64,000 nt of DNA. Source: a virus. The stretch covers positions 17,822-81,821 of IMG/VR virus record IMGVR_UViG_3300025118_004802; one strand, 5' to 3'. Below the pieces are notes generated by a model. The model did no database searches, was not told the origin of the DNA, and saw only the letters and a list, made by a program, of their open reading frames with translations. How positions within the stretch are numbered: the stretch's first letter is position 1; each line of letters opens with the position of its first letter. Both the position numbers and the translations under genes were made by a program. This document shows, in pieces, positions 1-50,316 of this stretch.

Positions 1-3000
1 TAGTGCAGTACACTGACAAAATGCCACTCACCATCGACTATAGAATTTGTCGATACTGCCGCTGGGGATGCGGGGATATCACCTTCCTCCTCATAAATAG
101 CAATTTTTCCATCACTCTTTCGAACACACAACAAGAGTTCCAGGCCGGTGCCCCCCTCATCATAAATCGCCCAGACAGTACCGTAATCCTCAGAGGGGGT
201 TTCCGCCTTTATCCAACAACCAATCGTAAAATCGATGTTGTAGCCGATGCTCGGCCCCTGGATGATATCATACAGATTCGCTTTATACATGCCGCTTGTA
301 CCATCAAAATAAGTACCCATACCCCCCTTGACAGCCTCCCACTTGCCCGGGCTTGGGATTATTGAACCAAGAGGGGCGTCAACGAATAACTGGGGATTGT
401 TGTTTGCATCCGGATGTGGGAGCGCCGGCGATTCGAAGCGTGAACTATCCCGCAGCATGTATGGTTCCGCATTAATTCCATAGTCCATATAAGGAGCATT
501 GCCCATTTGGTACCAAGCGACCAGCGTCCCAGAACATGGATGTTGGTTGAGGTCACAGGGGCCTGCTTGGTTGGCACCAAACTTATAAAGTTGTGTGATA
601 TCACTTCCTGTAAGTTCGGAATTCCAAAATGCAATATCGGTTATTGAGCCCTTAAATTCCGACGTCATGCCGGTATCTTCAGCGCCGATCCCAATTTTGG
701 ACGTGCCAGCATAGGAGGCCGATACGGCGCCATTAGCTACTGCCTTTCCATTCACATAAAGAGTAGAATAGGTAATGCCACCATCTCCGTTATAGCGACC
801 GGTCACGCCTACGTGCATCCATTCACCCGCCTGAGCACTATAAGTGCTAGAGTTAATAGCAGACGCGCCATTTTGTGCCTCCACAAAAAATCGGCCAAGG
901 GTGCCGCCGGATTCCTCAGCCCGGAGATGTATGGTGTCGAGGCCGCCGCCGGCGGGTCCTATGAAAAAAACCACTCCATCTTGCGAAAGTGAAGTAGGCA
1001 CCTTTATCCAAGCAAAAGTAGAAAAAGAAGAGTTTTGAAGTCCTAATTCAGATATAGCCAACCCAGACAAGTAGAGGTCATTTGTTCCATCAAAATAAAT
1101 CGAATAATTGCTATACCACCGAGCATCATTCTCATACCTTCTGGCAACGTTTTGGTTAACTTTATGATATGAGGCAGATATTAAGTGCTGAACATTATCT
1201 AATTGGGCCGAGCTTGAAAGCGTATTTGCTTTCATCCCATACTTAGCGGCGTGTTGTGCAAAAAGAGAGTTTAATGGTTGGCGAACCGTGAGGTTACGCC
1301 ACGGAAGCGCGTTGTATGGAGAGTACTCTTCTGAAGTGTAGTCTCGTGTTCCTCTCGCCATCACCTCTGATGAACCTGGGGCGCTGAATCTCTCGACAAA
1401 AACGCTCTTATTTGTAGTGCGGGTGGGAAGAGTATAATCAATAACTCCAGTGACATAGGATGAGCCACTACTTGCAATCGTGAGGTTCTCTATCGAAAGG
1501 TTGTTAATCCTCCTTCCGCTTGTTTGCACCACTTGGTAATTCTGATCAAAGTTGCCAATCTTTGTGACACCAGAGCTTGTAACTTGTTGAATGTTTGCAA
1601 TGTTAACCGGGCGCTTGGCATAGGTTTCCCTTGTTCTGTTGGCGAAACCAGCGTTCGCATCGGCGGCAGAGCCTGTGAAATCAATAGCACCGCCAGCAAC
1701 AGTTATAGTGCCGGGGGAGGAGCCGACCTCATCGCCCATTATTATGCGGAAACCTTCAGGACGGTCGTACCTCGTGTTAAGATCGCGTTCCGAGGATGAA
1801 TAATTCACGTCTACGTGGCGATATTGGTAGCCTCCAACGTATTTCTCGGTGAAGGGACCCTGAAGTGGTATCTCATAATCAGGACCGTATGAATCATTGT
1901 GAAGATTGGTTAGTGCGGTTCCTTCAAAGCCCGCAACATCCTGAATCTCCTTAACGTACCCTGTGGACACGGAAGAAGAATAAAACGTAAATGGAGCGCT
2001 GTCTTTGGCAACCTCTGTCGGGGATCCATCATTAGCTGAGCCAGTGTGAGTATAATACGATATCCTCTTTTTGGCAGCCGGATTGCCCGACGCGTCTGTG
2101 AATACTGGCTTTAAGACGTCATCGCAGTCTTCAATTTGTTCGAGATCGGAACCTGAGATATATACGTAATCATGGTAAAGTTGTGTAGAATCTTCATCCT
2201 TAACGTTGTCGAACGTTGATAGTACTGATTTTTCTTTTGCGTTTGTTGGGGCGTTAGAACCCCCCTTTATATTTCGTACCTCAACAGCGCTGAATTTGTA
2301 GGGCGAGTCAAGCCGTCGATTTAAAACTTGCAATGAAGCAGACAGATACTCAGTCCTGTTCTCGTTGACTGCGGGATTCCCAGAAGCGCTGATTGCCCCA
2401 ATCGTGCGCTCGGCGCGCTCCTTCCACCAGAAACAATTAACGTCTTGTTGATTTCCAATACCACCAGTCAATTTTGCTGGAGAAGAACCGTTGGCTCCAG
2501 CAGCAACCATCTGCCCCACGACATCCGTAAACACAATTTCATTACCTGCAGATCCGATCCTGGTCGCACTTACAGTTATCGTTGGGTTGGTTCCGAGCGT
2601 GGCGGAAATGCCTGCGACACCATTAGTCGCGTCACCGGCCCCTGTTCCATACGCGACAGAATTAGAAGGTGACGGAGTGCCTCCAGTTATAGCGATAACG
2701 AGTCGAGCAAGAATTGCGGCGGCGGTGCCAGCCGTGCTAACTTCTACCTGATTCGCGGTTCCGGAAGATGGGGTTCCAGACACCATTTTGACAGTTATAT
2801 CGGTACCAGATACGCCGGTGTCTGTCGCAACATTAACTGTAAACTTATCATTGTCGCTGAAACCGGTTAATGTTAACAGATCAGCAAATGAGGCGCCCTT
2901 CGATGGGGCTGCGTGTCCAAATTTCCAGTTATATAGTAATTCGTTAATACCGCGAGCGGCGTCTTCAGGATCTGAGAACTTGCTCTCAAGTGTTGGGAAC

Positions 3001-6000
3001 TTATTCCAATACTTATTCCTTTCGAGTACGTGGCTCTCCACCATGGTGCGGACACCTTCAGAGAATTTTGCCGACGCTGGAATCATTTGAACCAACATCA
3101 GAGTCAGAGAACTGTCAATCCATTTGTAATACTCTAGATATTTTTCAAAATCTATAGTACTATTGGACACCCCTTCAAAGAATAGCTGACGAAGCTTTCC
3201 TAAGATCTTATATTCTTGACGATAGCGATTAACGGGGTCTCCAATCAAATTATTGAAGTCTTTAATAGTGGCAAAGAAATCAATCATCTGGCGCGAGACT
3301 GCCTCGTACATGCTCTTTTCAATCGAGAAGTAATAATTAGTTGGCCTGGAATCGAGAGTGAAATTGACGTCGTCCTGCGAAAGGATGTTTACCATCTCTG
3401 AACTATCAACGTACTCGGGTAATGTTTGTTTTGAGGCATACAAAAATTGTGTGTCCACGACAGTTGTCTGGTTGGCTAAGTAGTCCTCACCACGACCTGT
3501 GTGTTGGGATCTGAGCATTGGACCGAGCCACCCATAAGTGTTTGTACCACCTGGGATGGCTGTAACGGAACCCGAGGATACATCAGGTACCGCAAACCCT
3601 GCTGTGTATCCTGTTCCTCCGTCGCCGGCATCAGAGCCGGTCACGGTTGCAAAATCCCAATCCAACAGAAGGGTCTCTATTGAAGGAAGATAAGAGCCAG
3701 TGCAGTCTTGGAAAACATACGCATTTCTATAAGGGTGTGCAGCACCAAAACTAGTAGGATCCTTTGCGTGAGCCAGAATGGTTGTGTTGTCCAGTACGTC
3801 CAGCCATGCACGTGCAGAGGAAATCTTGGCATCTGACTTTTGTAGGGCCCCCCCCAGGAAGTTCGTCTTGTTTGCTCCAACGAAAACACGCTTCGAGGAC
3901 GTCATGAATTGCTTCGCGTAGTCCCCATCCATGCTGGCAGTTAAGTAAAACTCGTTCTCAATCTGATTATAGTTCAGATTAACACCGTAAAATTCAACTT
4001 TGTATGGTTGGTTGTCTCTTGTTGGTAAGGTTCCCGATACCTCCGAAGATAGTGGATATGAAGACGGGCCGATCTTGACGGCGAAGTTCCAACGTTGGTT
4101 TTCATAAACGCCGGGGATCGCCGAAGACGTGAGAGCCGGATGGAAGAACCCACCCGCAGAACCAGTCAAGATGAATCGCGCGGCGCCGGCCGAAATATCT
4201 TCGGCGCCCGGGGTATAGTCTTTGGCAGCTAATACTTGGAAGTTGGCCACGTCTGGTGAGTTCCAAGCAACCTCTGCGCCCGTTTCAGACTCAGACGTCT
4301 GTTTAACCGTGTGTATACCAAAAATAGACGCCGTTGCAAAATCATTGATAAAGTAGTTTGTCTCGCTGACCTTTTTAGGGGCCGGGAAAATAGCTTCAGC
4401 CTCAAACGTCATACCCCAGCCGCCTGTAAGATGACCAGACCCTGTAATAAAAGGTACTGAATTAGCATTCGCGCTGGCAGTTTGCTGGTATACTACCGCA
4501 TTAAACCGATCGGGGTGATAAAAGTCAGCATACTTCTTTCTTGTTGCGCCGGCGCTTCGGTTATCTCGAATTTTATATGTAACATCACTTCCATATACTT
4601 TTAAATCTATAACTTCTCGGTCAATGCCGTAACAGCGTATTAAGTTGCGGAAGGATTTCTCTGTTCCTTTGGACTTATAGATATAAACTAAGTTATTGTA
4701 AATGTTTTCGTAAATTCTATTTTTAACATTGTAAATATCGTCTGCGAAGATCTTCTCATCGTTGCGAGCAGCCAACTTTTCTATAATGTCTGCGTCGACA
4801 AACATCTCAGGTGCAATTAATCCGACCGATTCAAGCAGTTCTTTCCCGAACGGAAGGGGTTTGGCGCTGGCACTAGTGTACAAGACGTTCTCGCGTATTG
4901 CTGGCAATGCCTCCATCTGGAGATGCATGCTATCAAAGAAGCTAGAGATAACCTGAGTCAGGTTTTTGATTGCTCCAGAATCTTCTTCGATAATCCAGGC
5001 CGGAATCGTATTATATAGAGATGCCGGGTTTGAGTAGTCATAAACTGACCCAGTGGCCAAGAGCTTGGTGCGCAAACTGACCACGCTGGGGTGATCACCG
5101 TAGATAATTGGATCCTCGAATTCTATAGCAGAGGCACTTGACTCGATCATAGCTGACCCAGTATTCCTGGAGTACAAAGCCTCATAACCAGCAAACGTAC
5201 CGTTAGTAATCCTGCCAGAGAAGTCGAGAGCCACTGAGTCTAAGCTTGAATCCCCGGTGATCCCCTCGTTAAACTTATAATAAACACCTAATTGTGTGTT
5301 AGCTGTGTCGCTGTTGGTGCCGCCGCCAACTTGGGAAAACCAATGGCGGCCGACTTGTCGTGCATCACGCTTAGTCTTCCAGTATCTAAATTCGTCTACG
5401 GAACCTGAGGTCTTATACCAACCAATAGAACCAGTTGTGACACCAGGAGTAGTATAGGCGGCGCTGTTCAGGGCGCCGACAGTAGCTACCAGGGCACCAG
5501 TGATCTCATTGATAGCTTGGCCAGTCTCGGTAACTGTATTGACGATGGTTCCGTTTTCATAAACCTGATATGCTAAATCAGATCCGTCATTAACGACAGT
5601 GATAGCATAATGATTCCAAGACCCGGTGCTTGTCAGAGTCAAACCATCGGAGATGGAATACAACATCGTAGAAGTTGCAACGCTTCCAGATTGCAGGCTG
5701 GCCTTGAGCCCACTAGTTGCGGCCGCACCATTGTTATAATAATAAACGTAGAAGCGCCCATACGGTGAGGAGGCGTCGGACCCAGAAAGTTGGGAGTTAG
5801 AAAGGTCGAAGAGTACCTGAGTTTGAGTGGTGACGTCCGGATCTAAATCTCCAAACTTTACCCAGAACTCCATCGTGGCGCCTGAAGAGAGATCGAATTT
5901 TAAGTTAGATTCTTGATTTTCAGTCGGTGACCAGACATTGGAACCACTGAAAGTTTTGTAAAGAGGTGTCGTAGTCATCCCGCTGGATGCGGTATGAGGA

Positions 6001-6428
6001 CCTCCGTAAAAAATAATATACTCTTTACTGGTCGGATTGCCGGGCTGGGCCGAATCAATTGCGTATCCAGTAGAAGGGTTACCACCAAAAGTAACATACC
6101 CGTTCGTGCGAGGATACTCATTATTAAAGATGTATAAATCAACACCGGAAGAACTATTCTCCCACTCTAATTTTTCTTGGTGTGAACCATCATAAGGATA
6201 GTTTTTTAAAATACGATTAATCGAATCGTCATAATACTTCTCGGCTGAACCGTATTTAACAAAATTTGACGCTGATGAGAAATCTACGTGTGGGAGGAAC
6301 CGATTCTTCTTCTTAAGATAATCTTTTATATAGCCTACCGACTCTACTTCGGTGGCCACGGCCTCAAGGCTTTTATCCTCCAGGGTCGTGTTACTATGTT
6401 TCTTAAACAGATCTTTTATGCTGCTCAT
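1..6428 (-). CDS. Giant virion structural protein with LamG-like domains (3' end outside window)
   Basis: The minus-strand frame starts at an ATG whose A is 6428, overlapping the stop of the upstream gene as ATGA. I translated both ends and several stretches and found no stop; the frame runs off the left edge, giving at least 2,140 residues. Three regions look like LamG/concanavalin-type sandwich domains: near residues 95-320 (with MEFWVKFGDLDPD), near 1790-1945 (DIAFWNSELTGSDITQLY), and at the window edge (FTIGCWIKA ... DGEWHFVSV). A Ser/Thr/Gly-rich segment around 2500-2850 resembles one in the next gene upstream. Such proteins usually form tail fibres or baseplate-attached adhesins that bind surface glycans. 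Its place at the end of a T4-like baseplate block fits that role. The exact virion position is unknown. Confidence 0.8.
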   Translation of the reverse strand, partial: MSSIKDLFKKHSNTTLEDKSLEAVATEVESVGYIKDYLKKKNRFLPHVDFSSASNFVKYGSAEKYYDDSINRILKNYPYDGSHQEKLEWENSSSGVDLYIFNNEYPRTNGYVTFGGNPSTGYAIDSAQPGNPTSKEYIIFYGGPHTASSGMTTTPLYKTFSGSNVWSPTENQESNLKFDLSSGATMEFWVKFGDLDPDVTTQTQVLFDLSNSQLSGSDASSPYGRFYVYYYNNGAAATSGLKASLQSGSVATSTMLYSISDGLTLTSTGSWNHYAITVVNDGSDLAYQVYENGTIVNTVTETGQAINEITGALVATVGALNSAAYTTPGVTTGSIGWYKTSGSVDEFRYWKTKRDARQVGRHWFSQVGGGTNSDTANTQLGVYYKFNEGITGDSSLDSVALDFSGRITNGTFAGYEALYSRNTGSAMIESSASAIEFEDPIIYGDHPSVVSLRTKLLATGSVYDYSNPASLYNTIPAWIIEEDSGAIKNLTQVISSFFDSMHLQMEALPAIRENVLYTSASAKPLPFGKELLESVGLIAPEMFVDADIIEKLAARNDEKIFADDIYNVKNRIYENIYNNLVYIYKSKGTEKSFRNLIRCYGIDREVIDLKVYGSDVTYKIRDNRSAGATRKKYADFYHPDRFNAVVYQQTASANANSVPFITGSGHLTGGWGMTFEAEAIFPAPKKVSETNYFINDFATASIFGIHTVKQTSESETGAEVAWNSPDVANFQVLAAKDYTPGAEDISAGAARFILTGSAGGFFHPALTSSAIPGVYENQRWNFAVKIGPSSYPLSSEVSGTLPTRDNQPYKVEFYGVNLNYNQIENEFYLTASMDGDYAKQFMTSSKRVFVGANKTNFLGGALQKSDAKISSARAWLDVLDNTTILAHAKDPTSFGAAHPYRNAYVFQDCTGSYLPSIETLLLDWDFATVTGSDAGDGGTGYTAGFAVPDVSSGSVTAIPGGTNTYGWLGPMLRSQHTGRGEDYLANQTTVVDTQFLYASKQTLPEYVDSSEMVNILSQDDVNFTLDSRPTNYYFSIEKSMYEAVSRQMIDFFATIKDFNNLIGDPVNRYRQEYKILGKLRQLFFEGVSNSTIDFEKYLEYYKWIDSSLTLMLVQMIPASAKFSEGVRTMVESHVLERNKYWNKFPTLESKFSDPEDAARGINELLYNWKFGHAAPSKGASFADLLTLTGFSDNDKFTVNVATDTGVSGTDITVKMVSGTPSSGTANQVEVSTAGTAAAILARLVIAITGGTPSPSNSVAYGTGAGDATNGVAGISATLGTNPTITVSATRIGSAGNEIVFTDVVGQMVAAGANGSSPAKLTGGIGNQQDVNCFWWKERAERTIGAISASGNPAVNENRTEYLSASLQVLNRRLDSPYKFSAVEVRNIKGGSNAPTNAKEKSVLSTFDNVKDEDSTQLYHDYVYISGSDLEQIEDCDDVLKPVFTDASGNPAAKKRISYYTHTGSANDGSPTEVAKDSAPFTFYSSSVSTGYVKEIQDVAGFEGTALTNLHNDSYGPDYEIPLQGPFTEKYVGGYQYRHVDVNYSSSERDLNTRYDRPEGFRIIMGDEVGSSPGTITVAGGAIDFTGSAADANAGFANRTRETYAKRPVNIANIQQVTSSGVTKIGNFDQNYQVVQTSGRRINNLSIENLTIASSGSSYVTGVIDYTLPTRTTNKSVFVERFSAPGSSEVMARGTRDYTSEEYSPYNALPWRNLTVRQPLNSLFAQHAAKYGMKANTLSSSAQLDNVQHLISASYHKVNQNVARRYENDARWYSNYSIYFDGTNDLYLSGLAISELGLQNSSFSTFAWIKVPTSLSQDGVVFFIGPAGGGLDTIHLRAEESGGTLGRFFVEAQNGASAINSSTYSAQAGEWMHVGVTGRYNGDGGITYSTLYVNGKAVANGAVSASYAGTSKIGIGAEDTGMTSEFKGSITDIAFWNSELTGSDITQLYKFGANQAGPCDLNQHPCSGTLVAWYQMGNAPYMDYGINAEPYMLRDSSRFESPALPHPDANNNPQLFVDAPLGSIIPSPGKWEAVKGGMGTYFDGTSGMYKANLYDIIQGPSIGYNIDFTIGCWIKAETPSEDYGTVWAIYDEGGTGLELLLCVRKSDGKIAIYEEEGDIPASPAAVSTNSIVDGEWHFVSVLH

Positions 6429-17558: not shown

Positions 17559-18512
17559 TTAGTTTGTCTTGTTCATAGGGCTTAGAATGTACTTGGTACC
17601 AGAAGGGCTTAAGTAATTAGTTTTTACACTTTTAAACATGAGCTTATTTTTAACCAAATCTGGGATAGACTTTCCTACCTGATGCTTCATTTGGAGAATG
17701 CCCGCTACCGTTGTCATCGGCGTTGCTATCGATGGAGCGGCAAAGTAAGGACTAATATGTATGTGGTTTGCCACCGTCGCGTTAAACTCAACTTGAGAGC
17801 TTAAAAAGTGGCCCACCAACTCTCCCAACGAATCGATATCGGCCACGATCTTGTTCAGGGCTGCAACTAGATTATCACCTTTGACGAGTGGTTGCAGGAG
17901 TGGGACCCCATTTTTGTCCAAGCCATCTTCATACATTGAAATTAGTTCGATACCATGCCGGGCGCATTCGCCCGTTTGTGAATTTCTTTCTTCGGCTGTG
18001 GCTACTCCGGTTACCAACTTTATGCCTTCTCTGCCGATCACCCTGATTCCGTCGGCCTTAATGAGAACTGCTGAGCGTGTTTTTGCATTCCCGATTCCCC
18101 CATTCGGAAGCCTAAAGTATTCATCAATATCCGATTTTTCAGAGATGTATATACGGGCTGCGTCATCCATCGGAAGCGGATCGACCGCTTTGTCGTTACC
18201 AACATTTTTGCACGCACCTCTTCCCACAACCAAATCAATGGCAGCACAATTGGTGTCGCCTTTGCCCCCGTATCCATGTTTTCTCGGACCCATATTATCT
18301 TTGGTTAAACAGATGTAAGATCCGTAATTATTCTTGAGGGGAGGCTTGTTTTCGCAATCTCTCTCAACATAAGTGGGGCTCGGACCGGCGGGGCCTGCTC
18401 CGCAAAACACATTTCTTTTATACCCCTCATCACCACACTCGGTTTGTTGTTTATTATGCTCCTTGATTGCGGCGTTTTTAGGGGGCTTGACAGCCTTTTC
18501 TTGGGTGCTCAT
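17559..18512 (-). CDS. Putative baseplate/spike-associated protein (317 aa)
   Basis: Encodes 317 residues starting MSTQEKAVKPPKNAAIKEHN. The start overlaps the stop of the upstream amidase-hub gene by four bases (ATGA). The N-terminal third is Gly/Lys/Cys-rich and suggests a metal-bound or disulphide-stabilised loop. The middle contains AARIYISEKSDIDEYF followed by RSAVLIKADGIRVIGREGIK, a short alternating repeat like the beta-helix or needle segments of phage spikes and gp5-type proteins. The C-terminal part (KYILSPMNKT) is beta-rich. It lies between a peptidoglycan-cleaving hub candidate and the giant structural protein, so a role in the central spike or hub is reasonable. I do not recognise a specific family. 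Confidence 0.6.
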   Translation of the reverse strand: MSTQEKAVKPPKNAAIKEHNKQQTECGDEGYKRNVFCGAGPAGPSPTYVERDCENKPPLKNNYGSYICLTKDNMGPRKHGYGGKGDTNCAAIDLVVGRGACKNVGNDKAVDPLPMDDAARIYISEKSDIDEYFRLPNGGIGNAKTRSAVLIKADGIRVIGREGIKLVTGVATAEERNSQTGECARHGIELISMYEDGLDKNGVPLLQPLVKGDNLVAALNKIVADIDSLGELVGHFLSSQVEFNATVANHIHISPYFAAPSIATPMTTVAGILQMKHQVGKSIPDLVKNKLMFKSVKTNYLSPSGTKYILSPMNKTN

Positions 18513-39169: not shown

Positions 39170-40483
39170 TTACAGTACCTTCGAAGCCAGGGTTGCAACT
39201 CGGGAGCGCTCTCCTTTTCGTAGAGAGATGTGACCAGCTAACTCACAGTCCTTGAATTTCTCAATAGCGTATGTCAAACCATTCGTTGTCTCGTCTAAAT
39301 AGACATTATCGATTTGTTCAATGTCTCCTGTGAGAACTATTTTCGTATTCTCTCCTACTCTGGTAAGTATAGTCTTTAATTCATGATTTGTTAAGTTTTG
39401 AGCCTCGTCTATCACGATAAAGGCATTCGTAATCGAACGGCCTCGTATGTAAGTCAAAGCCTCAATCTCGATAAGACCCTTATCAGTATACATATCTAGA
39501 GATGCTTTGTCATCGTTCATTAGATGCTTTAGATTATCCTCAATCGGGGCTATCCATGGGGCCATCTTTTCTTCCAATGTACCGGGCAGAAACCCTATAT
39601 CTTTCCCTAGTGGTTGAACCGGGCGGGAAATGACTAGCCGTTTGTATTTTTTAGTTTCGAGCACCTGCTGTAACCCGGCAGCAACAGCTAAAAGAGTCTT
39701 CCCACAGCCTGCTTTGCCTGTGAGAGTAATGATTGGTATCTCTTCGTTCATCAGTAGGTCTATAGCAAATGTCTGTTCCTTGTTGCGAGAATGTACGCCC
39801 CAAATTCCTTGCCTGTATTCAGCGATTGCACTTAAAGGCTTTTTTATTGAAGACAGGCGCGCAAGGGCCGTTTTCTTTGGATTTGAATTCGAAACGAGCA
39901 TCAAAAACTGGTTGTCATATAGTTTGTTAGTCTCGTCGTCCAGTATTACCTCTTCATGGTTATAAAACCGATCAATTACCTGTTCATCGACAAGCTGATT
40001 TGTGAACCCAGCATACACGTCATCCAGGTCCTCAACCACTTGATTATCGACATACCCCTCACATAATATCCCTAAAGCATCGCACTTGACGCGCATATTG
40101 ATATCACGAGAAACCACAATAACCTTCCGGCGAGGTGTCTCCTCTTGTTCGCCTAGTGCCACACCAATAATCTTATTGTCAGCGTTTTCGATGTCGAAAG
40201 AATGAGGCAATATTGTTGAGGCGTTATAAGGGCGGGCGCGCACTATTCCTCTTCCTTTGCCCAGACGTACGCCCTTTCTCAAACACCCTCGGTCGCGGAG
40301 TTCGTCTAACGTTCGTATAATCTTGCGAGCGTTGGCTCCTACACCGTCCTGCCGCTTCTTGTGCTTATCGATCTCCTCAAGCACTTTAAGAGGAATAACG
40401 ATATCATTATTGCCAAAAGCGCTGATTGAGGTTGCATCACTCAAATAAACGTTTGTGTCCAGTACGTAAGTTTTCTTCGCCAC
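39170..40483 (-). CDS. phoH: PIN-PhoH family ATPase (PhoH2-type)
   Basis: The 437-residue protein fuses an N-terminal PIN-like RNase domain (YVLDTNVYLS, with acidic residues through about 160) to a PhoH ATPase with Walker A TGKAGCGKT near residue 255, SRPVQPLGKDIGFLPG and Walker B FIVIDEAQNL. PhoH2 proteins are RNA helicase/RNases; phoH genes are frequent in marine phages and often associated with phosphate stress in hosts, though function in phages is unproven. The start codon is at 40483 and the following protease gene is separate. Confidence 0.93.
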   Translation of the reverse strand: MAKKTYVLDTNVYLSDATSISAFGNNDIVIPLKVLEEIDKHKKRQDGVGANARKIIRTLDELRDRGCLRKGVRLGKGRGIVRARPYNASTILPHSFDIENADNKIIGVALGEQEETPRRKVIVVSRDINMRVKCDALGILCEGYVDNQVVEDLDDVYAGFTNQLVDEQVIDRFYNHEEVILDDETNKLYDNQFLMLVSNSNPKKTALARLSSIKKPLSAIAEYRQGIWGVHSRNKEQTFAIDLLMNEEIPIITLTGKAGCGKTLLAVAAGLQQVLETKKYKRLVISRPVQPLGKDIGFLPGTLEEKMAPWIAPIEDNLKHLMNDDKASLDMYTDKGLIEIEALTYIRGRSITNAFIVIDEAQNLTNHELKTILTRVGENTKIVLTGDIEQIDNVYLDETTNGLTYAIEKFKDCELAGHISLRKGERSRVATLASKVL

Positions 40484-43207: not shown

Positions 43208-43291
43208 TGGTAGGGAAGGCGGGATTTGAACCCGCAAGCCGTGAAGCGGGAGATTTTAAGTCTCCTGTGTATGCCATTCCACCACTTCCCC
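43208..43291 (-). tRNA. tRNA-Leu (UAA) with encoded CCA
   Basis: The minus-strand sequence GGGGAAGTGGTGGAATGGCA begins the gene; its acceptor stem pairs with CTTCCCT (first pair G-U), followed by A and an encoded CCA. The anticodon arm GGAGA-CTTAAAA-TCTCC gives anticodon UAA. A class II variable arm (CGCTTCACGGCTTG region) and T-arm GCGGG-TTCAAAT-CCCGC are complete. Fully canonical. It has its own promoter. Confidence 0.96.
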
Positions 43292-43333: not shown

Positions 43334-43809
43334 GCATTGTTTTTTTTCAAAAGATCGTCATCTTCCAAAGTTTCCAAATAATCAAACTGCATCTTTTGGA
43401 GATTACAGGTGAAAAAAGGATCCACTTCTTCGAACTCTTTGAGATAACGATTACTTACGATAGGTTGGAATGTGGAAATTCCGTGATCCTTGATATAATT
43501 AACATAAAAAGGGTTGTCATCAAAGTATACCTGAATATCGTATTTTTGCAGCAGCTTAAGCTTGTGGCGCGCCATTTTTTTAAAATGACTTAGATCCATT
43601 TGAGTTTTGTCATACTCATAACCGCCCAGAATGGCTTTATAGTGAGTATTCTCCACACCCAATTTAACTAGAGCTTCCTCAACTTCGTATAATTTAGAAG
43701 GAGGCGTCCCTGTAATGATATAAACGTCGCCAGGCCAGCTTTTAATTAAATTTACAAAAAATACAGGATCATATGATATTGTATCGTGGAAATCTAGCCC
43801 TAAATTCAT
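43330..43809 (-). CDS. HAD-superfamily phosphatase/nucleotidase-like protein
   Basis: Start at 43809 is set by an ATGA overlap with the upstream stop. The 159-residue protein has LDFHDT (nucleophile Asp6, Asp9) near the N-terminus, the Thr motif YIITGTP, and VYFDDNPFYV as the terminal acidic motif. It lacks a large cap domain, typical of small HAD phosphatases and 5'(3')-nucleotidase-like proteins in phages. The substrate is unknown. The stop codon sits in the -35 element of the tRNA-Leu promoter. Confidence 0.82.
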   Translation of the reverse strand: MNLGLDFHDTISYDPVFFVNLIKSWPGDVYIITGTPPSKLYEVEEALVKLGVENTHYKAILGGYEYDKTQMDLSHFKKMARHKLKLLQKYDIQVYFDDNPFYVNYIKDHGISTFQPIVSNRYLKEFEEVDPFFTCNLQKMQFDYLETLEDDDLLKKNNA

Positions 43810-44648
43810 CTTGTTAACATAAATAACAACGGCCAAGCAGGGATAATCCTGAGGTCTTGTGGTGTTACCACAGCACAACCCTCTCCCGAGCTGTCGTGGT
43901 CATCAGATGGCGCTGAGAGACTGTCGCTTTTAGTAAAGCTGTTCGGGCTCCACTCAGCGGTGTCCTGAATCCCATTACCGTTGCGGTCGTGATCGCAAGC
44001 ATCTCCAATGCCGTCTCTGTCATGATCCTCCTGATATGTATTTGGTACTGAAACACAGTTGTCAACATGATCATAGTTATAGTCGTTATCCATATCGTTT
44101 GCGCATTTCATATTTCTACGGTAGTCGCGGCGATGTAAAAGTGGGCACTCATCCATAATATCGTCCACACCATCGTTGTCATCGTCAGTATCACAGACAT
44201 CTCCTAGGCCGTCGAGATCTGTGTCGATTTGACTCGGATTAGGAAGACCCGAGCAGTTATCATCAGTGTTATTGACTGAGTCTCCGTCTAAGTCTTCGTC
44301 ACAAGAATCACCCACGCCATCTGCGTCGCGATCATATTGGTTAGGGTTCCAACTAGTCAAACATGTGTCACATGCATCCCCCCATCCATCAGCATCTCGG
44401 TCTGACTGGTCCGGGTTTGAGTCCCATGGGCACGTATCGAAATTATCCTCTATGCCGTCCTCGTCATAATCGTCTGCATATTGATAGCTATCACCTTGAT
44501 CAGTATTTGCGATTAAAACACTACCTCCCCCTCCTCCGCCGCCAGATTCCTCCGGAGTGCCACACAAGCCGCCGGCGCATTCGCCCTCTTCCTCAGCGTA
44601 TACGGGGTTTGCCAGGAGGGCACTAATCATAATTATATTTTTTAACAT
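43806..44648 (-). CDS. Exported thrombospondin type 3 repeat protein
   Basis: The 280-residue protein has a signal peptide (MLKNIIMISALLANPVYAEE, cut near Ala18) and a Gly-rich linker. From residue about 60 there are at least seven Asp/Asn-rich calcium-binding repeats (DEDGIEDNFDTCPWDSNPDQ and so on), the hallmark of thrombospondin type 3 repeats. The C-terminus (SGEGCAVVTPQDLRIIPAWP then LLFMLTR) recalls a Cys-hydrophobic-Arg sorting tail (MYXO-CTERM-like) but is short. It is likely exported or surface-attached, possibly captured from a host. Its role in a phage is unknown. Confidence 0.85.
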   Translation of the reverse strand: MLKNIIMISALLANPVYAEEEGECAGGLCGTPEESGGGGGGGSVLIANTDQGDSYQYADDYDEDGIEDNFDTCPWDSNPDQSDRDADGWGDACDTCLTSWNPNQYDRDADGVGDSCDEDLDGDSVNNTDDNCSGLPNPSQIDTDLDGLGDVCDTDDDNDGVDDIMDECPLLHRRDYRRNMKCANDMDNDYNYDHVDNCVSVPNTYQEDHDRDGIGDACDHDRNGNGIQDTAEWSPNSFTKSDSLSAPSDDHDSSGEGCAVVTPQDLRIIPAWPLLFMLTR

Positions 44649-44663
44649 TCTATTTTCCCTTTT

Positions 44664-45278
44664 TTAAATTATATCGTCGATGAGACCATATTCCAGGCAA
44701 GTCTTTGCATCCCACCATAGATCGCGTTTAAGCATCTCTTTAAGTTTTTTCTTAGGGATCCTGGTATATTGTGTATAAATATCGGTTATCGTGCGCATTA
44801 ACAATTCGTTATTCGTCATCTCATCCTTTAACTCTTCAAACTTCCCCCAACTTATCGAGGATAGTTGATGGATCAACATAAACGAATGCTCTCTCATTAA
44901 GCGTTTCTTGGCAACTACAGACATTAAAGTAGCTGCAGAGGCTGCGCAGCCATCAATAACCGATGTTACTGGAATCTGACTACTTTTTATGTAGTCGACT
45001 GCAGACATCCCCGCGAACACGCTCCCTCCGTAGCTGTTAATATACAGTTGTATACCAGTTGGACAACTTTCTAAGCCAAGTGTGTTAACTTGATTAAGTA
45101 AGCTGATATTTAGGGATGTGATCTTTTTATTCAAAGTTAAAATTTTTGCACGGTTAACTTCCGAATAGAAATATATCCTGTTGTTCATAGTCTCCACACG
45201 ATCTTTAGACTCATTTTCATCCGTGCTGGGATCAGAGTCCGAGCCTAGTCGCTGAGTGTTCTGAGTCCAAGTTAACAT
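44664..45278 (-). CDS. clpP: ClpP-family serine protease
   Basis: The 204-residue protein carries the complete ClpP triad: Ser114 in GCAASAATLMS, His137 in FMLIHQLS and Asp186 in KRDLWWDA; the His-Asp distance of 49 equals that in E. coli ClpP (His122, Asp171). The substrate-strand motif INSYGGSVFAGM is present. ClpP is the proteolytic barrel used with ClpX/ClpA, which degrades tmRNA-tagged proteins. A short basic/acidic N-terminal extension precedes the first core helix. The tmRNA lies 0.5 kb upstream with two small genes between. A prohead-protease role is an alternative. Confidence 0.92.
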   Translation of the reverse strand: MLTWTQNTQRLGSDSDPSTDENESKDRVETMNNRIYFYSEVNRAKILTLNKKITSLNISLLNQVNTLGLESCPTGIQLYINSYGGSVFAGMSAVDYIKSSQIPVTSVIDGCAASAATLMSVVAKKRLMREHSFMLIHQLSSISWGKFEELKDEMTNNELLMRTITDIYTQYTRIPKKKLKEMLKRDLWWDAKTCLEYGLIDDII

Positions 45279-45282
45279 TCGT

Positions 45283-45546
45283 TCACAGCTTCTTTCGCTT
45301 CTTTCGCCTCTTTTTGTTCCGAGGCTTCGGGCGTGTATCAGAGGGGATGTCTTCTGGAGGCTTCTCCCTAGTCTTAATTACAAACTGCCCCTTCACTTTG
45401 TGAATTTTTACATTCAAGTGATCAGAGTTAATCTCAATTGTCTCTTTGAGAGCCACCGCGCCTTCGTAAGTTTCTTGGCGGCCACTAATATCCCATCGAG
45501 GGCCCTCCTCGTCCGAGGGCGCTTTTTCTCTATTTTTATATGTCAA
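45283..45546 (-). CDS. Small hypothetical with very basic C-terminus
   Basis: Encodes 87 residues: an acidic first half (EKAPSDEEGPRWDISG), a short beta segment (IHKVKGQFVIKTREKP) and a tail PRNKKRRKKRKKL. It starts one base after the coiled-coil gene and ends just before clpP. No domain recognised. Confidence 0.6.
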   Translation of the reverse strand: MTYKNREKAPSDEEGPRWDISGRQETYEGAVALKETIEINSDHLNVKIHKVKGQFVIKTREKPPEDIPSDTRPKPRNKKRRKKRKKL

Positions 45547-45735
45547 CTAGAGGATTCTCCTCTTCTCCATCTCTTTCACTAAAACCTCCATATCCTGTCG
45601 GATCATGCTGCGCGTCGTGTTAAGTTCACCGCGCAGGGTCGCCAATTCATCGCGAAGTTCGCTCACGCTGGTGCGCAGGTTCCGTGAATCCTTTTGAACT
45701 ACCGTGAGTTCCTTTTTGAGTTCCGTATTAGTCAT
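45547..45735 (-). CDS. Small coiled-coil protein
   Basis: Encodes 62 residues with a heptad pattern (ELRDELATLRGELNTTRSMI) over nearly its whole length, ending KEMEKRRIL. A GGAAC stretch precedes the start. It lies directly downstream of the tmRNA 3' end. Function unknown. Confidence 0.6.
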   Translation of the reverse strand: MTNTELKKELTVVQKDSRNLRTSVSELRDELATLRGELNTTRSMIRQDMEVLVKEMEKRRIL

Positions 45736-45766
45736 TTAAGTTCCTTTTGTTATTATCCGCTTCAGG

Positions 45767-46096
45767 TGGAGACGCCGGGAGTCGAACCCGGGTCCAAAAT
45801 ATTTCGAACATTACGTCGTTCACAAGATTAGTTTACCTTTTTTACGCAGAAAAGTTAAACAAAAACTGCTTTAGTCTCCGCTACCAGAGCTTCTTTTTTA
45901 CCTCAGAAAGAAGAAACTGCTTTTTGCTAGCGTTTGGTTAAAAGGTTGCTAGCGACCCCTGCTTAAGCAGCTAGTGCTACAGCGTTTTCAACGTCAATAT
46001 TGGCGTTTAAGTTTTTAAGCGTTTTTACAGAGACCAACGCTTCCCTCTGTCTTGCATGTAATGTTTTTGATACCTTGTCGAATCCTTTTCGTCCCC
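45767..46096 (-). ncRNA. ssrA: tmRNA (ssrA) with tag ANIDVENAVALAA
   Basis: On the minus strand the 330-base RNA starts GGGGACGAAAAGGATTCGAC, the conserved tmRNA 5' sequence, and ends with a T-arm CCGGG-TTCGACT-CCCGG and acceptor CGTCTCC plus A. The two ends pair over seven bases with one G-U. CCA is not encoded. A resume codon GCC at 46004-46002 follows the hairpin region and opens ANIDVENAVALAA then TAA (45965-45963). The tag ends with the ALAA recognised by ClpX/ClpA. The resume position was set by alignment with the E. coli gene by eye. tmRNA rescues stalled ribosomes with SmpB, which is not seen here. Confidence 0.95.
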
Positions 46097-46227: not shown

Positions 46228-46255
46228 AGTATATACTATTTCTATCATTTGTCAA
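46228..46255 (-). promoter_or_regulatory. Sigma70-type promoter of tmRNA
   Basis: On the minus strand TTGACA (46250-46255), a 16-base spacer and TATACT (46228-46233). The stop TGA of the upstream 121-aa gene lies in the same stretch: GACAAATGA, starting within the TTGACA. Confidence 0.8.
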
Positions 46256-46610
46256 GCTGTTCGCTAAAATAATCGATTAAATTGTACTTTTTTACTAATT
46301 TTTCGAATTCTACCTTGTTAAGACCTAGGAATCGCGCGGCTTCTCTTTTCGATGCAGCTGCTGAGAGCGCATAGTATAAAGAAGCTTCTTGTGCAATAGA
46401 CGTCATTGCACGGACTACCGGAAGACCATAAAGTTTACCTCCGATACTACGGCTAGCTAATTCTAACTTAAGACCAATAATCTCTTCTAACTTAAGCTGG
46501 TTAAGCATCACCTCAAATTCTACTGTAGTCTTCTTCTTGCTTCTCAGCAGTTTACTTAAAGACACCCGTTGGTATTTTGAGCGGCTCTTTTTTCTCGGTA
46601 TCCACAACAC
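46245..46610 (-). CDS. Putative Fis-type HTH DNA-binding protein
   Basis: The 121-residue protein begins at GTG, overlapping the upstream stop by one base (TAGTG). The N-terminal half is very basic (PRKKSRSKYQRVSLSKLLRS). The C-terminal SAAASKREAARFLGLNKVEF is a Fis-like HTH_8 motif. It probably binds DNA. The last codons contain the -35 of the tmRNA promoter. A GC-rich hairpin occupies the ribosome-binding region. Confidence 0.7.
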   Translation of the reverse strand: MLWIPRKKSRSKYQRVSLSKLLRSKKKTTVEFEVMLNQLKLEEIIGLKLELASRSIGGKLYGLPVVRAMTSIAQEASLYYALSAAASKREAARFLGLNKVEFEKLVKKYNLIDYFSEQLDK

Positions 46611-47481: not shown

Positions 47482-50316
47482 TTAGTATTCAGTTTCTAAT
47501 ATATTAGTTATAGTATCCTCTATATTCTCTAGTTTGTAAATATTAGCTTCTTCTTTTTTCTTTTTCTTCTTTTTGTCTCTCTTGTATACGGGCCCGGCAT
47601 AACCAGCTACGCTGCCACCTCCCATCCCCGAGATCTCAGAAATGACTTCCTCAACCAAAGAAAATAGGTAGTGCATATTGAGTTTTTTTTTAGATTCTGT
47701 GGCCACAATTTCTTCTTCTTCCGGCATTGAACTATTAACATCTGAGAGGGTGTCGACTATACTGTTGATGTTGTCCTCTTTTGGTTCCGGTACAAAGTCT
47801 TTCAATAATTCTCTCACAACTCTCTTGCTATGCGGCCCTATGGCAGGATTCATGTACAATTTCAGAAAATATCTAAAGTCAGATGCATGGAAGTCTTCCG
47901 ACGGATCATTTTCGGACGTCTTATTTGGTACACCATCCCTGATTCTACGGTTACTCTCTCGGTCAAGCAACGACATGTATTTGCCGCTGTGGGTATCATC
48001 TAACTTGCAAGCTCGTTTGGCTAGTTTTAAATCCGGTCTAACTCTACCACTGCTACTGATACTATCGACAGCGTCAAACCTTTTCACATCAGAAATTCCA
48101 GCAGCATCGGCCTTGTCCCCACACCCGAAAACAATTGTAGCCCCGACGGGCGCCCCGAAGCCGCCTTCCGACGGTGGAGGCTCTTCTACATACTTCAGTG
48201 CGCTAAGAAAGGGAGAGTTCTCATCTGACACTTCAACCTCAACTTTACCCTCTGGAAGGTCTAAGTTCGAAATTATTTTTCTCCATATGGTTGCAGCTGC
48301 CTCAGCACCCAATACGACGCCCGGGGTTATTTCACGTATGCTACCTTTCCCTTGGGGATTCGACACTAAGATACGTACTAGGCTGATTGCAGGGTCCATG
48401 GCTAACTGCATTAATGCCGCTACATGGCCACGGTGTGGTGGCTTGAAGGAGCCAGGGAATAGAGCGATAGTTTTGCCGGCTTCTTCGGCGCTGTCTAATT
48501 CCCTTTCCTTAGCCTCTTGGTCCGCCTCAGACGCCGCGGCGCGAACTCCTCCAGGCGCTGCAGCGTTTTTAGCCAATGCCTGGGCAATCGGATCCCCAGT
48601 GGGCAACGCACTACTTATCCCCTTTGCTAGAGAATATAGCCCAGCTGGGAGGATTAATTTGTTGGCCTTCGCCAATGCCGGTACTAAGCCTGGTATCTTT
48701 TTGGCCATTTTAGCCAACTTGGCACTTCCGGCTACTCTTTTTACACCCATCGCGCCCGCCTTCGCGCCTTTGAGCCTGCCACCAACTATGGGAATGGCAA
48801 AAACTATAGAAACCGCCAATGCCGTAGCGTTGGCGGTGCTGTCATCGGCAGAAAAGTCATCATATGCATCTTCCACGGCCGGCCATTGTGATAGCCCGGT
48901 AGGATCAAAAATCATTGCTGCCGTCTGGGCCCAGTCTGGCAAATATCCCATGCCGGCTCGAATTTCATCAACGAGCGAGTCCAGGAGGCCCTCTGCCAAC
49001 ACCGGTTCGGTGGCTTCAGTAACTTTGCCGAACGGAGTGTCCAAACCTTGTGTAATAAACTCACCAGTAATCTTTACATCGAGCGGCATATCAAAAGATT
49101 CTCCACTATTGGGATCCTGTACTGTGGTACTTCCAAATCTTTTGTCACGTACGACAATCCCTTCTTGACTCTCTACGTCTCCAAATGTTTCACTAGTTAG
49201 TGAACTCTTAACGACGTGGCCTAAGTTTTTAATAGCTTCCCAAAAAACTATTCCATCCACAAACGTACGAACCGCAGGAACTTCCCCAACCCCCGGATAA
49301 TGTACTGTCTGTTCTGGGTCGACAAGTAAATCAGATAACTTCTTCTGAGCCTTCCCGTAAAGATAAATGTCTTTGTTGAGTGGGTCGACTGCTGCAGCCT
49401 TGGTTTTTATTTTGATCCCTTTGATACCTTTTGGGTTATGCGCACTTTTGAGCCAATCTTTTAATTTAAAGTCAACCGGACAATCTGTCTCGTCAATACA
49501 AAGGACCAGAGGTGTATTTAATACACGCTCAAATTCTTTATGTACATCCGGGGTTTGGGTGTCTGTTTTATATTTAGTTGGAATCGAAGAATATATATCA
49601 AACCCAAGTTTGGCTGCAATGGGACGCATTTTTCGCACTAACGTTTCTAGCACTTCCTTATTATAGGGGATAGCGATACCTTTGTCAGGTATTAATTTTG
49701 GATTTCCGCGTCGGTCAAGCACCTGATCGCCATTATCGTCGACCATCTCTGGTCGTGGCAGACCGGGGCGGCTTGCAGTAGAAAATCCTGAACGTTCTTG
49801 CTTATCTGGTCGTGGTACCACTCTTTTTTCATAGAACTGAGCCAGTCCGTGGATCGCTATATAGCTTCTGTCATATTCAACTACGTTGGTTCTTTTATCT
49901 TCTTCATCCACCTCAACGAACTCGATATTGAAATAACGCGAAGGGTTGTCCCACATTCCAAGTTGTCGCAATTCGTGCTTAATCCCAGGAAGAGACGCAT
50001 TGAATATGTCTAGTACTTTTCGATAAGAACCGATCATCCCATGCGTCGGATTATCAACCCAGCGTTCAGCAACACGGGCCTTCGTAATCCCGCTCACGTC
50101 TACCTCATAGCTGGATCCTCGATCTCCTGCGAACTGTCGGCCATCGATATCGCCATTTACTACTTTGATTGAAGCGTTAACACCGTCCAGCTTTAGCGCG
50201 GCGGGACTAGATTCAATCGATGTGATGATATCATAAAAAAACTTAACTAGATCTTCACCTGTCCGGACCGCGTCCAGATCAAATGGGTGATTCATGTGTC
50301 CATATGCGCCGCCCAT
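47482..50316 (-). CDS. Multidomain protein: RNA/DNA ligase-like plus NadD/NMNAT-like nucleotidyltransferase
   Basis: A 944-residue fusion. Residues about 1-430 resemble an RNA or DNA ligase: Lys42 in KLDGVNASIK is the K-x-D-G nucleotidyl acceptor and YFNIEFVEVDEED lies further on. A hydrophobic segment near 505-600 (IVFAIPIVGGRLKGAKAG) follows, then at about 616-850 a cytidylyltransferase-type fold with ALFPGSFKPPHRGHVAALM (HxGH-like motif) and DFHASDFRYFL in place of ISSTxxR. The C-terminal region (SLVEEVISEISGMGGGSVAG then a Lys-rich tail) recalls phage head-associated proteins. It could be a packaged repair/NAD-related protein. Domains are inferred from short motifs; substrates are unknown. 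Confidence 0.75.
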   Translation of the reverse strand: MGGAYGHMNHPFDLDAVRTGEDLVKFFYDIITSIESSPAALKLDGVNASIKVVNGDIDGRQFAGDRGSSYEVDVSGITKARVAERWVDNPTHGMIGSYRKVLDIFNASLPGIKHELRQLGMWDNPSRYFNIEFVEVDEEDKRTNVVEYDRSYIAIHGLAQFYEKRVVPRPDKQERSGFSTASRPGLPRPEMVDDNGDQVLDRRGNPKLIPDKGIAIPYNKEVLETLVRKMRPIAAKLGFDIYSSIPTKYKTDTQTPDVHKEFERVLNTPLVLCIDETDCPVDFKLKDWLKSAHNPKGIKGIKIKTKAAAVDPLNKDIYLYGKAQKKLSDLLVDPEQTVHYPGVGEVPAVRTFVDGIVFWEAIKNLGHVVKSSLTSETFGDVESQEGIVVRDKRFGSTTVQDPNSGESFDMPLDVKITGEFITQGLDTPFGKVTEATEPVLAEGLLDSLVDEIRAGMGYLPDWAQTAAMIFDPTGLSQWPAVEDAYDDFSADDSTANATALAVSIVFAIPIVGGRLKGAKAGAMGVKRVAGSAKLAKMAKKIPGLVPALAKANKLILPAGLYSLAKGISSALPTGDPIAQALAKNAAAPGGVRAAASEADQEAKERELDSAEEAGKTIALFPGSFKPPHRGHVAALMQLAMDPAISLVRILVSNPQGKGSIREITPGVVLGAEAAATIWRKIISNLDLPEGKVEVEVSDENSPFLSALKYVEEPPPSEGGFGAPVGATIVFGCGDKADAAGISDVKRFDAVDSISSSGRVRPDLKLAKRACKLDDTHSGKYMSLLDRESNRRIRDGVPNKTSENDPSEDFHASDFRYFLKLYMNPAIGPHSKRVVRELLKDFVPEPKEDNINSIVDTLSDVNSSMPEEEEIVATESKKKLNMHYLFSLVEEVISEISGMGGGSVAGYAGPVYKRDKKKKKKKEEANIYKLENIEDTITNILETEY

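Follow-up and report, generated by a model that had tools for sequence, protein, structure and literature searches.

Does a phage-encoded tmRNA that lies next to a phage-encoded ClpP-like protease form one machine for rescuing stalled ribosomes and degrading the tagged products, or are the two genes neighbours by location? The question is raised by a locus in the window, the whole 64,000-nucleotide stretch of DNA analysed here (positions 17,822 to 81,821 of IMG/VR record IMGVR_UViG_3300025118_004802). The record, an 81,821-base (81.8 kb) fragment, comes from a large marine phage with T4-like relatives. The tmRNA is located upstream of clpP on the same strand, 486 nt away, which agrees with the 0.5 kb given in a preliminary description of this DNA, and two small open reading frames occupy the gap. 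The relevant features of the window are as follows.

39170..40483, minus strand: PIN-PhoH protein (Pfam profile match), the anchor of our neighbourhood survey
43208..43291, minus strand: tRNA-Leu(UAA) (ARAGORN), in the tRNA-bearing region around clpP
44664..45278, minus strand: ClpP-fold serine peptidase of 204 aa, named ClpP-A here (PF00574, 102 bits; triad; predicted fold)
45283..45546, minus strand: second small open reading frame in the gap, of 87 aa, assigned to no family
45547..45735, minus strand: small open reading frame of 62 aa between tmRNA and clpP, with Pfam matches below curated cut-offs only
45765..46096, minus strand: one-piece tmRNA of 332 nt (ARAGORN, Rfam RF00023 and acceptor-stem pairing)
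45963..46004, minus strand: tag reading frame ANIDVENAVALAA followed by a stop, resume codon GCC (ARAGORN, positions 93-134 of the tmRNA gene)
46228..46255, minus strand: putative sigma-70-like promoter TTGACA-16-TATACT, preceding the tmRNA by about 130 nt (consensus match only, 11/12 positions)
46245..46610, minus strand: conserved 121-aa protein upstream of the tmRNA, with 43-51% identical homologues at the same place, used as conserved-site marker in the long relatives G002, G003 and G006

Relatives of ClpP-A were found in 343 stretches of IMG/VR, and the best 80 of the 343 were taken for a survey of loci. A tRNA was present within 1.5 kb of clpP in 48 of these 80 related loci, with tRNA-Arg just upstream in 29, and ARAGORN detected a tmRNA in 24; in each of these it lies to the 5′ side of clpP, 0.38-8.9 kb off. 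Elsewhere in the window, the gene just downstream of clpP (43806-44648) encodes a protein that has four thrombospondin type 3 repeats and an N-terminus resembling a signal sequence. A 944-aa protein (47482-50316) displays ligase-like KLDGVN and nucleotidyltransferase-like GSFKPPHRGH motifs by eye, with no match in Pfam, PHROGs or NCBIfam. The suspected coding gap at 1-6425 is most likely a single long gene crossing the window edge.

Judged from its sequence, the tmRNA of the window is intact in architecture, and neither the tmRNA nor the ClpP call is a chance match. The preliminary description had proposed a complete tmRNA to be checked with the Rfam model, and both gene and check held: ARAGORN delimited the 332-nt gene, and RF00023 matched it with 120.9 bits (E 1.1e-46, cut-off 47) over the full model (1-374), the pseudoknot (middle) part being aligned with low confidence. 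The acceptor stem GGGGACG/CGTCTCC is paired at 7/7 positions and includes the alanine-identity pair G3-U70, which is the pair read by alanyl-tRNA synthetase. All 41 tmRNAs examined, from the window and from related phages, share the seven pairs and G3-U70, and the stem sequence varies through compensatory changes. The 3′ end encoded in the window is ACCT, that of most relatives being ACCA, so that CCA completion by a nucleotidyltransferase would be needed after transcription. The tag possesses a stop codon and a hydrophobic degron end. Beside ClpP-A relatives, the tag ends in ALAA in 22 of 24 cases (RLAA and AQAA once each) and the remainder drifts, as would be expected if a ClpX-type unfoldase of the host still has to recognise the tag. 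A tmRNA in another contig (G008; locus L012, 1501-1892) has a long tag, ANLNRLANLDFSFSVNEVEVAVA, with an end other than ALAA.

Comparison of the window tmRNA with annotated phages by blastn gave matches limited to the final 40 bases. A search of bacterial genomes for one tag common in the clade, ANDNVEFDYALAA, as a pointer to the host returned 0 matches. The possibility that the tmRNA is an attachment-site remnant is disfavoured, because the gene is complete and related phages have it again at comparable places.

The full ClpP triad reported in the preliminary description was also confirmed: S114, H137 and D186 are invariant across 29 aligned sequences. The AlphaFold model of ClpP-A has a mean pLDDT of 82.7, and its Foldseek matches are solved ClpP structures. 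ClpP-A is thus like bacterial ClpP (S14, PF00574) in fold and Ser-His-Asp triad, but unlike it in the parts that meet an unfoldase. Its N-terminus is unrelated, with no axial-loop motif in the sequence alignment, and it falls far short of all NCBIfam ClpP equivalog cut-offs (67.9 versus 308.6 bits for TIGR00493, the others being similar). In mature E. coli ClpP, the aromatic residues Y60, Y62 and F82 (Y74, Y76 and F96 of the precursor) stabilise Clp-ATPase binding (PMC9765437). At this docking pocket, alignment of the ClpP-A sequences alone showed Y62 changed to H in 26/29, F82 replaced by a polar residue in 28/29 and M92 changed to D or E in 29/29. Since the docking residues and the axial-loop motif are both missing, a partnership of ClpP-A with host ClpX appears doubtful. 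ClpP-A is best read as a separate accessory phage peptidase, predicted in its function and putative in its substrate, in a tRNA-rich variable region between conserved genes.

The best-scoring named relatives of ClpP-A are the ClpP-like head maturation proteases, which raises another role, that of a head-maturation protease unrelated to the tmRNA. Its best PHROG match is phrog_94 ‘head maturation protease’ (E 6.8e-40), and it scored 105.6 bits against NF045542, the head maturation protease family, whose curated cut-off of 120 bits it does not attain. Its relatives, however, carry a separate head protease of the T4 gp21-type S77 family, found elsewhere in 18/20 clade contigs longer than 100 kb (4/4 among G002, G003, G006 and G028, and 14/16 of the others), so ClpP-A is probably not the capsid protease. 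A search of the 81.8 kb fragment of the window itself for this S77 protease found none. ClpP-A moreover sits near tRNAs and PhoH, and G028 has no ClpP-A at all. We consider the capsid role very improbable.

In the 68 surveyed loci with enough sequence, the tmRNA lay at most 0.6 kb from clpP in 6 only. Among ClpP-A contigs of at least 60 kb, 20/36 had a tmRNA scoring above the cut-off, and here the distance reached 41 kb in G041 and 71 kb in G039. A small set of contigs (n=7) was sampled by the head protease gp21, none with a full-scoring ClpP-A and with the intermediate relative in G104 counted as without; 4/7 of these carried a tmRNA. Contigs sampled by PhoH and devoid of ClpP-A, as checked within 10 kb only, carried one in 8/16. 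With the 36 long ClpP-A contigs extended by G002, G003 and G006 to 39, tmRNA was present in 22/39 contigs with ClpP-A versus 12/23 without (Fisher p = 0.80, for related contigs and counts uncorrected for phylogeny). In the PhoH neighbourhood, the corresponding values were 1/10 loci with ClpP-A versus 12/27 without (p = 0.07), and the sole locus with both genes is a near-identical copy of the window.

Each gene also occurs alone. A tmRNA without ClpP-A was found in G028, G017, G102, G103 and G107, and ClpP-A without a tmRNA in G006, G047, G056, G062, G063 and G073; in G028 the tmRNA is kept at the conserved site. The comparison of related phages that the preliminary description had called for therefore went largely against its linked pair. 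Since ClpP-A and tmRNA occur independently in relatives, the two are most likely neighbours by location in a gene-swapping zone, and not partners in one machine. Three points count against this reading or soften it. The contigs are metagenomic fragments, so absence is weak evidence; they are also mutually related, so the counts are not independent events. In the window, the tmRNA and clpP point the same way at a short distance, and nothing resembling a minus-strand terminator was seen between them, so a shared transcript could exist.

A rival explanation of the adjacency is a rescue-and-degrade module, in which the phage tmRNA tags incomplete proteins and the phage ClpP, with host ClpX and host SmpB, destroys them. 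The common strand and proximity of the two genes and the ClpX degron ALAA at the end of the window's tag suit such a module. Against it stand the lack of association between tmRNA and ClpP-A inside the clade, the distances of up to 71 kb and the missing ClpX/ClpA docking features of ClpP-A. The absence of any encoded unfoldase or SmpB alongside also argues against it. Consistent with the preliminary description, which had seen neither SmpB nor ClpX, searches for SmpB and the Clp-ATPase small domain found none in the whole 81,821-base record, a fragment; unfoldase and SmpB were both absent from the long relatives G002, G003 and G006, and SmpB was absent from the 24 phage contigs searched. Its suggestion that trans-translation may be reprogrammed to suit the phage's own protease finds no support in the nearly equal tmRNA frequencies with and without ClpP-A or in the missing docking features. 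No established pairing of tmRNA with ClpP in phages was found in a literature search.

At least 119 loci outside the clade fitted a tmRNA 5′-end pattern, and ARAGORN recognised a tmRNA in 80 of the 119. A ClpP was in view in 3/119 of these tmRNA-pattern loci versus 1/118 neutral loci (p = 0.62), against the module, but tmRNA-pattern phage contigs longer than 40 kb contained some ClpP in 8/30 cases versus 2/26 neutral contigs (p = 0.09), in its favour. A general association of tmRNA with ClpP in phages may exist, weak and not significant here. A second T4-like lineage has a divergent ClpP that is immediately preceded, at about 0.1-0.3 kb, by a permuted tmRNA (L060, 271-1444; L131, 1178-2434). 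This arrangement might reflect selection for adjacency, which supports the module and counts against our own reading. On balance, we regard the module as improbable for the window.

Other contigs encode more of the parts that such a module would need. On the 62-kb phage contig IMGVR_UViG_3300038300_000076 (L102/L151/L182), a one-piece tmRNA has a ClpA-like ATPase with two domains as a neighbour at about 1.5 kb, and the ClpP encoded by the contig is canonical, with both the axial loop and the triad; a search for SmpB found none in it. As a candidate for a self-contained module, this contig is superior to the window. A second contig of 48 kb, IMGVR_UViG_3300009788_002224 (L136/L150/L183), has a permuted tmRNA and encodes a ClpP of the canonical type as well as a ClpB/ClpA-like AAA protein. 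All three parts, tmRNA, canonical ClpP and ClpA/ClpB-type ATPase, are found in each of these two phage contigs, which offer a better test of the module idea. In L135 and L064, the tmRNA is found about 1.5 and about 5 kb, respectively, from a ClpA/ClpB-like ATPase, on contigs without ClpP. Plastid or host contamination as the source of the contigs with tmRNA and Clp-ATPase was considered and set aside, the open reading frames of L102, L136, L135 and L083 being phage-like by eye.

Two ClpP-like genes are present in G002, G003, G006 and most long relatives, and the second, ClpP-B, opens a further role for ClpP-A. The two could act together, either by forming a mixed peptidase or by spoiling host ClpP, which would be compatible with our reading of the tmRNA. 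ClpP-B has a Ser-His-Asn triad, with Asn at the D171 position in 5/5 aligned sequences. Asn also occupies this position in Listeria ClpP1, which needs to be complexed with ClpP2 for its triad to be aligned (PMC9765437). GroEL is encoded near ClpP-B in three phages (L168, 9354-14080; L169, 9065-12550; L170, 4820-10145). The fragment to which the window belongs, however, has no second ClpP, and ClpP-B is also present without ClpP-A in G028. A joint action of the two proteins is therefore a tentative proposal, which we hold to be unlikely. A more elaborate version, in which both would build a mixed barrel, no longer able to dock ClpX and served by another, phage-specific feeder, with the tmRNA as an optional source of substrates, is less probable still.

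We favour, with a probability of roughly 0.7, a functional phage tmRNA that supplements host trans-translation, beside a separate accessory peptidase, ClpP-A, that is its neighbour only by location. The tmRNA would be transcribed, probably from its own host-type promoter, and host enzymes would then complete its CCA end and load it with alanine. With host SmpB bound to it, it would enter ribosomes that have stalled during infection on broken or non-stop mRNA, and so top up the host pool. Addition of ANIDVENAVALAA to the stalled peptide would release the ribosome, and the tagged peptides would pass to host ClpXP through their terminal ALAA. Since the phage tag keeps ALAA, ribosome rescue with host SmpB at the time of infection is plausible. 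From the interpretation first given to this locus, the genuine phage tmRNA, its ALAA tag and rescue with host SmpB are retained, and the pairing with ClpP is given up. The striking neighbourhood of one genome can dissolve on comparison with relatives.

Both components have precedents, phage tmRNA (PMC4131195, PMC9004378) and phage Clp proteins (PMC11242549) being already known. Less expected are the apparent loss of the docking pocket in ClpP-A and the relatives' predicted second ClpP, with Ser-His-Asn, near GroEL. The comparison brings to light, in the phages of this clade, a divergent ClpP family in which unfoldase docking appears lost.

A tmRNA is carried by 402/18,146 phages, given as 2.3% (PMC9004378). 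Known cases include the mycobacteriophage Bxz1 group and Wildcat, Bacillus phage G, Streptomyces phage Tomas and Methylophilales phage Melnitz (PMC4131195, PMC7474061, PMC9004378). To these is added a large marine T4-like clade, with a tmRNA in about half of the sampled contigs. The Sinorhizobium jumbo phage AP-J-162 resembles the window in having tmRNA and Clp proteins in one genome, but clpX is also present there, and the available part of its report describes no adjacency or link of the Clp proteins to the tmRNA (PMC11242549). The phage tmRNA of Wildcat is highly expressed in lytic growth (PMC7474061), and that of Melnitz was proposed to help the hijacked machinery or to tag host proteins (PMC9004378). 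Like the window, Tomas carries a phage tmRNA, in its case placed inside a tRNA array, and ALAA is again the end of the tag. Whereas the tmRNA of Melnitz is a two-piece one accompanied by a riboswitch, the window and its marine T4-like clade are represented by a one-piece tmRNA.
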